From Tateyamaria sp. (GTDB lineage: Bacteria; Pseudomonadota; Alphaproteobacteria; Rhodobacterales; Rhodobacteraceae): a DNA stretch of 6,562 bases. A program made the position numbers and the translations under genes. Below, piece by piece: positions 1,612-4,912 of this stretch (its first letter is position 1; each line of letters opens with the position of its first letter). The notes beneath the pieces are model-generated. The model saw only the letters and a program-made list of their open reading frames with translations, had not been told where the DNA came from and searched no databases. Location: the NCBI GenBank assembly GCA_018668195.1, contig JABITU010000223.1, positions 1 through 6,562 on the forward strand, read 5' to 3'.

Positions 1612-2700
1612 ATGACCCGCATTGATCCGCAACCCGGCATTATGGACATCGCTCTTTATCAGGGCGGGTCGAGCTACGTCGCAGGCATCGAGAATGTGGT
1701 CAAGCTGTCGTCAAATGAAAACCCCCTCGGACCCAGCGACAAGGCGGTCGAGGCATTTCGCCGTGCGGCGCAGGATTTGCACCGCTATCCACCCTCAGAT
1801 CACGCCGCTTTGCGCGCGGCAATCGCTGACGTTTACGGGCTGGACGCAGACCGCATCATATGCGGCGCGGGATCGGACGAGATCATCGCCTTTCTTTGCC
1901 AAGCCTACGCCGGACCGGGGCGCGAGGTCATACATTCGCTGCACGGCTTTGGCATGTATCGTATCAACGCACTGGTTGCGGGGGCCACTCCGATCGAGGT
2001 GATGGAACACGACCGTGTGACTGACGTTGATGTGATCCTTAAGGCAGTGACTGACGATACCTGCCTTGTATTTATGGCCAACCCTAACAACCCAACGGGC
2101 ACTATGATCGCCGCATCAGAGGTGGAGCGGCTGGCAGATGGCCTGCCCGACCATGCGCTGTTGGTGTTGGATGGGGCCTATGCAGAATACGTCAACGGGT
2201 ACGATGGTGGTGCAGCATTGGTCGAGTCGCGTGAAAATGTTGTTATGACGCGGACGTTTTCCAAGCTTTATGGTTTGGGTGGTTTAAGGGTTGGCTGGGG
2301 CTATGCCCCGTCACATGTGGTTGACGTGCTTAACCGTGTGCGTGGCCCATTCAACGTAACGGGTGCAGCACTTGCGGCCGCCGAAGCTGCGGTGCGCGAC
2401 GTTAACTATGCAGCACATTGTCAGGCCGAAAATGCGCGATGGCGGACTTGGATGGCGGATGCGTTGGCCGAAATCGGCGTGCCGTCTGACGTGTCGCTGG
2501 GTAATTTCATCCTCGCACGATTTGCCGACAAGACCGAAGCCGAAACCTGTGATGCCTATTTACAAACGCAAGGTCTGATTGTGCGGCGTGTTGCAGGGTA
2601 CAACCTGCCTTCGGCGCTTAGAATTACGGTTGGCGACGAAAGCGCATGCCGCCGCGTTGTACACGCCGTGCGGCAGTTCAAGGGCGGCGCCCGCGCATGA
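1612..2700 (+). CDS. hisC: Histidinol-phosphate aminotransferase
   Basis: This is a PLP-dependent, class I/II aminotransferase of the HisC group. It converts imidazole-acetol phosphate to histidinol phosphate, and in many bacteria also transaminates aromatic keto acids. The 362-residue length fits the family. Visible motifs in order: SSNENPLG (33–40), the cofactor-phosphate region CGAGSDE (84–90), NPNNPTG (157–163), DGAYAEY (187–193, PLP-contacting Asp187 and Tyr190), [15 protein letters not shown] with Schiff-base Lys218 and phosphate-binding Arg226, and Arg337 in LRITVG, the substrate-carboxylate Arg. The ATG follows a strong AGGAGG by five bases. The stop overlaps the tyrC start (ATGA), implying translational coupling. 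Pairing with tyrC rather than with other his genes suggests a main or shared role in tyrosine/phenylalanine synthesis, which is inference from context. Confidence 0.93.
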
Positions 2701-3614
2701 CCATGATCTATAACCGCGTGGCGTTGATCGGGCTTGGGCTGATCGCGTCGTCAATGTTCTGGGCGATGAAACGCAAGGGTCTGGCAGGCGAGGTGCGTGG
2801 ATACGCGCGCACTGCTGAAACGCGCGATACGGCGCGGCGGATTGGCCTGTGCGACCAAGTTTGTGACAGCATTGCAGCTGCGGTCAAGGACGCTGACCTT
2901 GTTGTGTTGTGTGTACCGGTAGGAGTCATGGGCGCTGTTGCAGCAGAAATGGCACCGCACCTTGCCCCAGGCACCACTGTAACAGATGTTGGTTCGGTAA
3001 AACGCGACGTGATCGAAGCCGTCAGCCCGCACCTGCCTTTAAATGTCCATTTCGTGCCGGCGCACCCACTTGCAGGCACCGAGCATTCCGGCCCTGAAAG
3101 TGGATTTGCTGAGCTGTTTGATAATCGCTGGTCGCTGATCGTTCCTGTCGAAGGTTCTGACCGGGACGCGGTTGCGCAGTTGCGAAGGCTGTGGGACCAG
3201 ATGGGTGCCAATGTTCAGGAAATGGACCCTGATCACCATGACCTTGTCCTAGCCGTGACCAGCCACGCACCGCATCTGATTGCCTATACGATGGTCGGTG
3301 TGGCGGATGATCTGCAACAGGTGACGGACAGCGAAGTGATCAAATACTCGGCGGCAGGTTTTCGGGATTTCACTCGGATTGCTGCGTCGGATCCAACGAT
3401 GTGGCGTGATGTATTCCTGACCAACAAGGACGCCACACTAGAGGTTTTGGGCCGTTTCACCGAAGAGCTTTTTGCTCTGCAACGGGCGATCCGAACCGGT
3501 GATGGTGATCATTTGCACGCTTATTTCACTCGGACCCGCGCTATTCGCCGCGGCATTATTGAAGCAGGTCAGGACACCGACGCGCCCGACTTTGGCCGAG
3601 GCGCGAAACGGTAG
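2697..3614 (+). CDS. tyrC: Prephenate/arogenate dehydrogenase (cyclohexadienyl dehydrogenase)
   Basis: This enzyme oxidatively decarboxylates prephenate or arogenate in tyrosine synthesis. It is a 305-residue TyrA-type protein without a chorismate mutase domain. The N-terminal Rossmann fold starts with GLGLIA (12–17), where the usual last Gly of GxGxxG is Ala. Next come TDVGSVK (96–102), [10 protein letters not shown] (123–132) with the presumed catalytic His123, SHAPH (189–193) and [16 protein letters not shown] (221–236) of the helical C-terminal domain. The second strand ends GYART (35–39), with Arg where NAD-type enzymes usually have Asp, so NADP use is possible. The start at 2697 is taken because it overlaps the hisC stop by 4 bp; an in-frame ATG at 2703 is the alternative, and 2646 would only add translated hisC sequence. 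The TAG stop is contributed by the inserted element that begins there. Prephenate versus arogenate preference cannot be read from sequence. Confidence 0.93.
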
Positions 3615-3717
3615 AGCATGTCGCGTTCAATCAGATTGAATTGAAACGCCTTAACTTAGTGGCGTGTTGTATGTTCGAACAGCGAAACCTTTGCCCACTT
3701 TGGCTGAACATGCTCTA
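3612..3717. mobile_element. MITE-like palindromic element with TA duplication at the tyrC stop
   Basis: The ends are perfect inverted repeats: GTAGAGCATG (3611–3620) and CATGCTCTAC (3709–3718). Taking the flanking TA (3612–3613 and 3716–3717) as the target duplication leaves a 102-bp body (3614–3715) with no coding capacity. TA duplication is typical of IS630/Tc1-mariner transposition. Internal dyads include TTCAATC-A-GATTGAA (3626–3640), ACGCC/GGCGT (3646–3650 with 3661–3665) and GTTCGAAC (3673–3680). From memory, end sequences of this type recur in intergenic palindromic repeats of alphaproteobacteria; I could not check copy number. No transposase lies in the window, so it would be non-autonomous. 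Confidence 0.7.
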
Positions 3718-3838
3718 CTATGCCTAGTGCGATGACGGGGTAGAACGTTTTTTGTTGGATTTTGGATTCTTTCCTTGTTTTCGGTTCCTTGAAACTTGCA
3801 GTTGCGCCTCTGCAGCGTTTGCCAAAAAACCTGAAACA

Positions 3839-3905
3839 TTGCGTATGACCGGACGCGTTGAACCCTAAAATTTTTAGGCCGGGTCATGTGGCGCAAGTTT
3901 TTCTT
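3839..3905 (+). terminator. Extended stem-loop with T-run, probable end of the hisC–tyrC transcript
   Basis: Nested arms pair across the structure: TTGCG (3839–3843) with CGCAA (3892–3896), ATGACC (3845–3850) with GGTCAT (3882–3887), GG with CC, and CCTAAA (3864–3869) with TTTAGG (3873–3878). Internal loops separate them. GTTTTTCTT follows on the plus strand. On the minus strand a run of six T lies about 8 bases beyond the stem, so it could also serve the convergent DUF2125 gene. The interruptions make it weaker than the rpsD terminator. The rest of 3718–3838 is T-rich, and I see nothing else in it. Confidence 0.5.
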
Positions 3906-3913
3906 ATAAATTC

Positions 3914-4912
3914 CTAACGCAGAAGCAGCCGGGGGCTGGGTAGGAGCGGGATAAAACCAAGTTTCATTGCGCCGTCACCCAAGCTAAGCGTGACGTCAAG
4001 CGTTTTAGGGTTGCCAGAGGCCTGAGCCAAGGCTTGCAGTATACCCTCTGACTGTTGACGCCGGGCCCGTGACAACTTGCCTGCAGCTTCGGCAAGGTCG
4101 AGCATGGCGCGCCAGTTTTGCGCCTGAATCGCCAATGTTCCCTCTGGCGTGCCATTTACATCCACGACCAGATCGGCCGCAAAATTAAGCTTCAGATCGC
4201 CCCAACGCGCCTCGGCAAGGTGTAAGCTGATATTGCGCGGTTGCGGCCGTCGCTTATCAAGCGCGCGGCTGTCCCATTCGGTATCAAAGGTCACCGTGGC
4301 CTTTAACTGCAGGCTGTCAAACGTCGGTGGTATCGTGTTTGCCAGTCGGAGTTGTTTGCGAATAGCGTCTCCGGGCGCAAAGCCGGACGCCTGCGCCAAC
4401 AGCTCATAGGTGGCGCCCTGTGTTTGTGTGATCGTCAGCGTCAGGTCTTGGGCCTGCACGACTGTACCGCTCGCATTGGCCAGATTCCAGGCGCCTGCTG
4501 TCCAGCCCAATGCTTCCAATTCGAGCGCCGTGCCGAGATGCAGGTTCAGCGACATCACACTACCGTCCATAGTCAAAGTGCTGCGACCCAAAGGTGACGC
4601 CAAAAGTATCGGGCCATCGTCCAGCGTGACGCTGACATCGCCGGGCCACCATGCGCGCGCCGATATGTCCAGCGCTGCTGTTTCGATTGCGATGCCGGCT
4701 TGCGGATCGGCAAGGGTTAGATCCGTCAGTCCTGCGCGCAGTGTACCTGGGAAACCACCTCCGGTTATGCCGGACGTTTCAGCCTGCCAGCCTTCGGCGG
4801 TGCGCGTTTCCAGCCACGCAGCGATGCTCGCCCGCATTCCAATTGACGCGGTGATCCACCACGCGCACCATGCAGCCGTCACTAGCACGGTGATCCAAAC
4901 CAGTTTGCGCAT
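3914..4912 (-). CDS. DUF2125 domain-containing envelope protein
   Basis: This 332-residue protein has one hydrophobic N-terminal segment (about 4–22, after MRK), which is a signal anchor or signal peptide; the rest would lie in the periplasm. The body is rich in alternating short beta-type strands. It carries the early pattern EGWQAE...GGGFPGTL followed by TDLTLADPQAGIAIE, which I recognise from the DUF2125 family of alphaproteobacteria. No catalytic motif is visible and the biochemical role is unknown. The start at 4912 is preferred to the in-frame ATG at 4960: it follows GGGGGAG closely and gives a standard signal sequence, while the longer form adds 16 polar residues in front of it. It converges on tyrC and diverges from the cyclotransferase gene. 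The family call rests on memory of its pattern, so it is moderately sure. Confidence 0.8.
   Translation of the reverse strand: MRKLVWITVLVTAAWCAWWITASIGMRASIAAWLETRTAEGWQAETSGITGGGFPGTLRAGLTDLTLADPQAGIAIETAALDISARAWWPGDVSVTLDDGPILLASPLGRSTLTMDGSVMSLNLHLGTALELEALGWTAGAWNLANASGTVVQAQDLTLTITQTQGATYELLAQASGFAPGDAIRKQLRLANTIPPTFDSLQLKATVTFDTEWDSRALDKRRPQPRNISLHLAEARWGDLKLNFAADLVVDVNGTPEGTLAIQAQNWRAMLDLAEAAGKLSRARRQQSEGILQALAQASGNPKTLDVTLSLGDGAMKLGFIPLLPSPRLLLR

Follow-up and report, generated by a model that had tools for sequence, protein, structure and literature searches.

The stretch of DNA analyzed here (the window) comprises the 6,562 nucleotides of contig JABITU010000223.1 from Tateyamaria sp. 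(assembly GCA_018668195.1) and harbors a tyrC-like gene whose stop codon coincides with the end of a short repeat element. To judge by its nearest TyrC proteins, the window is a piece of a chromosome of the Rhodobacterales type. Its genes are arranged in the order methyladenine glycosylase gene (end), rpsD, hisC, tyrC, a DUF2125 gene on the opposite strand, a ChaC-like gene and a last frame. The 3' end of tyrC displays the following features:

2697..3614, plus strand: tyrC-like prephenate/arogenate dehydrogenase gene (NF005694, E-value 6e-159; frame read from the sequence)
3612..3717, plus strand: whole element, TA + 102-bp body + TA = 106 bp, a decayed two-hairpin copy resembling the Caulobacter CcrM-associated intergenic repeats (CIR) (21-copy alignment and homologues)
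3611..3621, plus strand: left inverted end (G)TAGAGCATGT (arm comparison)
3708..3718, plus strand: right inverted end ACATGCTCTA(C) (arm comparison)
3612..3653, plus strand: hairpin 1 remnant, with a decayed right arm (CGCCTTAA vs. a CACGCTCTAA-like arm in relatives)
3671..3711, plus strand: hairpin 2, with outer arms ATGTTC/GAACAT and inner arms CAGCGAAA/TTTGGCTG (alignment; arms read from the sequence)
3725..3727, plus strand: downstream TAG, regarded in the first-pass annotation as the ancestral stop codon, a status that the homologues do not support (sequence)

The tyrC frame ends in GCG AAA CGG TAG, and this TAG (3612–3614) consists of the first three bases of the element, whose TA pairs are located at 3612–3613 and 3716–3717 on either side of the body (3614–3715, 102 bp). 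The first-pass annotation had described a miniature inverted-repeat transposable element (MITE)-like insertion in which the left TA and the first G of the inverted end build the stop codon, and removal of the body with one TA gives CGG TAC TAT GCC TAG, ending at 3725–3727. The letters and coordinates of the former were confirmed, and the latter was found to hold literally. The inverted arms (3611–3621 and 3708–3718) are 11 nt long and 100% complementary. As a rough estimate, chance alone would produce ~0.5 arm pairs of this kind, spaced no more than 300 bp apart, per 6.5 kb, so the inverted repeat by itself is weak evidence and it is homology that decides that the element is real. The element carries no transposase gene of its own, as the sole listed open reading frame (ORF) of at least 60 amino acids overlapping it past the tyrC stop (3651–3896, minus strand; no family search was made of this ORF) crosses its border. 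Terminal inverted repeats, short length and lack of an own transposase gene are all features of a MITE. The loop of hairpin 1 in the window reads GATTG and lacks GANTC, and the most conserved box of the element, AAACC...CCCACTTT, lies within hairpin 2.

Relatives of the element were searched for in 394 genomes belonging to the family of G003, one of the relatives (in the labels used here, L denotes a locus, G a genome, P a TyrC protein and H a plasmid match). With the window element as BLAST query, nine genomes matched at an E-value of 0.001, with full-length matches at three places in two genomes, the rest being right halves or the first 21–26 nt. The best relative, L086, showed 78% identity over 105 bp (E-value 3e-18 for its genome), and end-to-end alignment with L088, L095 and the plasmid copy L081 gave 70–71%. 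Because the homology extends over the full length, the window element is more than a chance arrangement; judged by these alignments, it is a genuine member of a two-hairpin repeat family of Alphaproteobacteria. The alignment of 21 copies revealed a shared plan in which a linker joins hairpin 1 (~42 bp) to hairpin 2, the latter containing the box AAACCGSTKC.CACTTT. The CIR-type plan, ~110 bp with two linked arms, is seen in the relatives, arm 1 being decayed in the window copy. GANTC is present in the hairpin-1 loop of 12 of the 21 aligned copies (11 rhizobial copies and L086) and is missing from the window copy and from the aligned Sphingomonadaceae, Roseinatronobacter and G085 copies. A plasmid search with the L088 copy retrieved 143 records (119 from Rhizobium, 12 from Sphingobium, and others). 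The window element itself retrieved one weak full-length plasmid match (H1) along with short pieces, and short pieces only from phages. Two stretches matched in the viral contigs searched, and 5 of 385 genomes matched in a class-wide search. Two further plasmid matches, H2 and H5 (loci L082 and L083), were rejected as they look like chance matches. One-hairpin elements of ~48 bp with both ends were also observed at L135 (1479–1526) and at the G320 loci L174, L177, L178, and L180; some of these also end long ORFs, and hairpin 1 is possibly a separate unit.

A pattern of the left end, allowing up to two mismatches, matched 25 of the 394 genomes, and the reversed pattern matched none. Some of the matches were short elements of ~42–48 or 103–116 bp, and others were ends of a 1060-bp repeat, of which L124 and L146 (both in G083) are 100% identical, with L137 at 90% and L138 at 81%. 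In L137, a 336-codon open frame encodes an IS630 transposase (NF033545, E-value 4e-58; DDE_3, 2e-29); the frame is broken into pieces in L124, L146, and L138. TAGAGC-type sequence was present at both ends of the 1060-bp copies (right end of L138, TAGAACGTGTCGG), and their flanks read YTA..TAR in four out of four. The first 22 bases of the insertion sequence (IS) end L128 and of the two-hairpin copy L139 are identical (22/22), while the left ends at five IS-type loci agree with the first 22 nt of the window element at 18–20/22 positions (18–19/22 for L124, L137, and L138). By this comparison, the window element has its ends in common with full-length IS630 elements as seen in related genomes, and an IS630-type partner with matching ends, as had been anticipated, is present in relatives (L124, L137, and L138). 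Elements of this group, sharing their ends with IS630-type insertion sequences, would most likely be moved by such a transposase. At another locus, L182 (1532–2008; G085 C112:15531–16007), a hairpin-1 unit is followed by an apparent IS630 end and a transposase start, and the contig ends inside. Here, the internal CTAA of a two-hairpin element seems to have served as the insertion site of an IS630 copy, similar to what is reported for IS711 in the Bru-RS repeats of Brucella.

Plasmids were searched with flanking sequence in three cases, which yielded both filled and empty alleles of relatives. At an amino-acid ABC transporter locus, the empty records L115 and L116 (both Rhizobium) read GGGGC-TA-GAGG (GGGGCTAGAGG) and the filled record L108 reads GGGGC-TA[element]TA-GAGG. 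At the CorA locus, the empty record L117 reads TGAC-TA-AAGCC (TGACTAAAGCC), a second empty record L118 reads TGATTAGAGCC, and the filled record L109 reads TGAC-TA[element]TA-AAGCC. At these two clean Rhizobium empty sites, insertion took place at the TA within YTAR, and the TA was duplicated. At both loci, the gene is encoded on the minus strand and the target TA forms the beginning of its annotated stop codon. This stop codon is TAG in three of the empty records (L115, L116, and L117), but TAA in the fourth (L118) as well as in both filled alleles, the protein length being unchanged. If the empty state is older, the stop codon preceded the element at both loci. Among the 12 records listed of the 255 found with the flanks of L103, no clean gap was seen (judged from the listing), and with those of L106, all 15 whole-length matches among the 25 listed of 263 records contain the element, with no empty site. 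The end-to-end homologues and the TA duplication at empty sites of relatives bear out the description of a MITE-like element with inverted ends and TA on both sides.

The base preceding the left TA in the relatives was C in 47, T in 29, A in 3 and G in 1 (C or T at 76 of 80 left ends). This bears on the idea that the element is a GTAG-tagged repetitive extragenic palindrome (REP), the termini of which are reported to provide TAG often to flanking ORFs (PMC3733652). The likeness lies in a repeat end supplying TAG to an ORF, and given this precedent, the provision of a stop codon by a repeat is not in itself novel. Membership of this class is highly improbable since GTAG REPs are reported as palindromes of 20–40 bp with an unpaired GTAG tag, whereas the window element measures 106 bp and has inverted ends that match IS630 ends, and the G before TA, i.e., the tag motif, is not conserved in its relatives.

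The positions of element ends relative to ORFs were evaluated using the left-end pattern matches (104 in the 25 genomes, summed; 83 listed; ~70 loci fetched), which gave 80 distinct ends at 69 loci. One of the 80 was dropped for its short flank; the remaining 79 outward ends all had flanks of 1000 nt or more, and for each of them, the longest upstream ORF of at least 100 codons was determined. Frame 0 denotes the cases in which the stop codon of the ORF is formed by the initial three bases of the element. Frame 0 was found for 25 ends, frame 1 for 6 and frame 2 for 4, with no ORF at 44; the 1290 YTAR sides of the background gave 147, 197, 207, and 739, respectively (frame 0 vs. frames 1 and 2, Fisher p = 1e-7). 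Pfam supported 20 of the 25 frame-0 ORFs as against 1 of the 10 others (p = 2e-4), i.e., 21 of all 35 long ORFs. Several of the supported frame-0 ORFs match through to the end of the profile, and the sole supported ORF outside frame 0 is that of an ABC permease interrupted by an IS. When both ends were considered for the 19 copies that were 100 bp or longer and had a mapped right end, 12 were located on a stop codon, three of these at both ends, compared with 125 of 645 background sites (p = 5e-5); the excess was also seen relative to sites without a long ORF (12:3 vs. 125:163, p = 0.007). When ORFs with a minimum of 120 codons were considered, 21 of 80 ends coincided exactly with the stop codon, compared with 137 of 1272 sides in the background (p = 2e-4). 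At each of the remaining distances within 150 nt past the stop codon, one or two ends were found. In the relatives, the ends match, the TA is duplicated, the stop codon served as the target (at two loci, the empty state being taken as older) and location at stop codons recurs. At L159 (1787–1902), both element ends close long ORFs, namely PMSR-family and PfkB-family genes, and at L172 (1568–1683), both ends close a Radical_SAM/TRAM_2 gene and a 103-codon ORF.

The first-pass annotation had suggested that the element could alter the stability or termination of the hisC–tyrC message. As a rival account, the element might be kept at gene 3' ends by its hairpins acting as RNA on transcript ends or stability, the stop position being selected and not a by-product of insertion. 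Six relatives were found to fold at z-scores of −3.1 to −6.4, and RNAalifold on the alignment gave one stem per hairpin with 16 pairs, 8 of which showed both-sided change, although inverted ends serving a transposase would yield similar compensation. An RNA role further predicts a spread of distances past stop codons, in contrast to the accumulation exactly on the stop codon described above. In the window copy, one arm is decayed; the 106-nt element folds at a z-score of −2.56 (2 of 200 shuffles as good) and the element with its flanks (141 nt) at −1.39 (17 of 200). No Rfam match overlaps the element, the three sub-threshold matches lying elsewhere in the window, and the promoter/terminator scan revealed nothing at 3500–4100. 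Selection for an RNA role is hence considered quite unlikely as the cause of the stop position.

The C-terminus of TyrC was compared across 80 related tyrC loci (DNA) and 120 listed TyrC proteins. The tail past the conserved FGR measures 4–6 residues in 57 of the 80 loci and 4 (GAKR) in the window. The listed TyrC proteins with 95–100% identity (P0001–P0014, of which P0001 is the window's own and P0011 lacks a start) all end in GAKR (14/14), and GRGAKR ends 26 of the 106 other listed proteins. The stop codon in the 80 loci is TGA in 69, TAA in 7 and TAG in 4. BLAST detected short chance pieces of the element only in these loci, and a scan with a degenerate end motif near their stop codons gave 12 14-mer matches, two of them at the stop codon (L060 and L078) without an element body. 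The first-pass annotation had proposed that the element interrupted a longer tyrC and cut three residues (YYA) off the enzyme, and that an empty site in relatives should show the longer reading after AKR. The literal excision does provide this reading, and tails of at least seven residues occur in 10 of the 80 loci, one having the length of the proposed ancestral tail GAKRYYA and nine being longer. However, homologues end at the same place as the window TyrC, none of the 120 proteins ends in YYA, the element-free locus L003 ends in GRGAKR followed directly by TGA, and GTAC, the site left by excision, is not a YTAR target. Trimming is thus an unlikely account, and the interpretation put forward earlier is partly supported as a whole.

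It is likely, with a probability of roughly three in four (0.77), that positions 3612–3717 represent an old, partly decayed, non-autonomous CIR-like element that was most likely moved by an IS630-type transposase and inserted into, or directly at, the stop codon that tyrC already had, leaving TyrC at about its normal length. Relatives provide the pattern, and for the window itself we infer both the entry at the stop codon and the nearly unchanged protein.

Several observations weigh against this reading or against an additional preference for stop codons. The window flank is G-TA..TA-C and not YTAR; being atypical in comparison with the relatives, it makes simple excision unsafe as a reconstruction. 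At an alcohol dehydrogenase (ADH) locus of Rhizobium, four empty records read CAG, AAG or GGA at the TA of the element (a fifth, L208, was left out as its site was not located), and the filled allele stops two codons before the empty ones. Slight trimming does therefore occur in this group, which also speaks for the trimming account of tyrC; at ADH, either TAG arose first or the insertion was atypical. The 49 genomes behind the tyrC loci gave no full-length BLAST match at an E-value of 0.01, the one plasmid searched along with them being the sole source of a full-length copy. The two-hairpin form thus has a patchy distribution within this family. An IS630 match was obtained in three of the seven genomes with short elements and exceeded the cut-off in two of the seven (ends checked in part for G085 only); the partner may have been lost or missed in draft genomes. 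With respect to stop codons, ends exactly on the stop vs. those 0–150 nt downstream (21:26) did not differ significantly from the background (137:242, p = 0.27), the background consists of tyrC regions, i.e., one kind of locus, and the 79 ends count both ends of some copies. A stop codon at an end was found in 9 of 17 plasmid two-hairpin copies examined (eight annotated genes and an unannotated ORF of 276 codons), a biased fraction since 16 of the 17 were chosen from 60 listed rows with the gene overlap visible (L081 came from another search). YTAR targeting together with loss of harmful insertions may explain much or most of the stop pattern, and an extra preference for stop codons is unproven.

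The right flank of the window may have been rearranged after the insertion of the element. The DUF2125 gene is convergent with tyrC, and the gap from the tyrC stop to its end is 299 nt (3615–3913). In 66 of the 80 related loci, an extensin-like gene is present within 700 nt 3' of tyrC; it was looked for in the window without a match. As the gene usual after tyrC is unmatched here, the flank has possibly changed since the insertion, perhaps with loss of this gene.

In this group, the target of insertion is the TA of a YTAR site, and this TA becomes duplicated. TAR is the form of two out of the three stop codons, so that any such codon following C or T constitutes a YTAR site in its own right. 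The element has a purine (G or A) adjoining the target TA, so an insertion in the stop codon rebuilds TAG or TAA and leaves the protein unchanged. By extension, stop codons could be the main safe harbour of widespread IS630-driven elements in GC-rich Alphaproteobacteria, with CIR-like repeats owing their spread to such self-healing insertion; the chances of this broader proposal being right or wrong are judged to be even. Intragenic YTAR sites would be costly, whereas TAA and TAG stop codons would offer the same target, and a purine at both ends would allow the stop codon to be rebuilt in either orientation. Convergent genes with one common YTAR could even have both of their stop codons rebuilt together.

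Repeats with a comparable description are found in several bacteria, among them RIME1 of Rhizobium, which consists of two palindromes and is 108 bp long. CIR are ~110-bp repeats of Caulobacter, Brucella and others. The element family resembles them in length, in its two arms with a linker and in TA at the termini (PMC2229807). Relatives also carry GANTC in the hairpin-1 loop (the 11 rhizobial copies and L086), in which the window copy differs. Two reviews place CIR as not intragenic or strictly intergenic (PMC2229807; PMC10969869), in contrast to the element family, the ends of which overlap stop codons; the comparison is with descriptions and not with CIR sequences. RUP of Streptococcus pneumoniae is 107 bp long and non-autonomous, with ends like those of IS630-Spn1 and TA-containing targets (PMC2229807). 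It differs in its host and in being described as intergenic or inside IS, and the excerpt does not mention landing on stop codons (PMC2229807). By description rather than by sequence, RUP with IS630-Spn1 appears to offer the best parallel in function, and CIR the best in structure. In Brucella, Bru-RS1 and Bru-RS2 are reported as palindromic repeats of 103 and 106 bp (PMC10800456) and as insertion sites of IS711, which targets YTAR and duplicates TA (PMC2266754). Similarly, MITEPsy1 is reported to target CTAG or YTAA with 4 nt duplicated (PMC3189936). The targets of IS711 (YTAR) and MITEPsy1 (CTAG/YTAA) are thus similar to that of the element family. Bru-RS and RIME1 are likened to the element by description, not by sequence, and identity with them is a lead. 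In the open PMC literature, as far as the text available extends, no mention was found of CIR, RIME or IS630 elements on stop codons; the original descriptions of CIR, RIME and Bru-RS and most subscription papers lie outside this scope.

A curiosity of one gene could in this way provide a testable rule as to how small repeats may spread in dense bacterial genomes without breaking genes. It would also offer a mechanism for CIR-like repeats, on the mobility of which more information is needed according to one review that leaves their mode of movement open (PMC2229807). In practical terms, where relatives of the element lie on stop signals, the stop is restored and the protein usually complete, and a gene-end repeat of this kind is, by itself, no ground for calling a protein truncated.

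With regard to the remainder of the window, a Pfam search with its last frame gave no match. Directly 3' of rpsD, positions 1235–1310 showed a sub-threshold Rfam match to sbrA (29.5 bits vs. a cut-off of 45), which perhaps marks the terminator region of rpsD.
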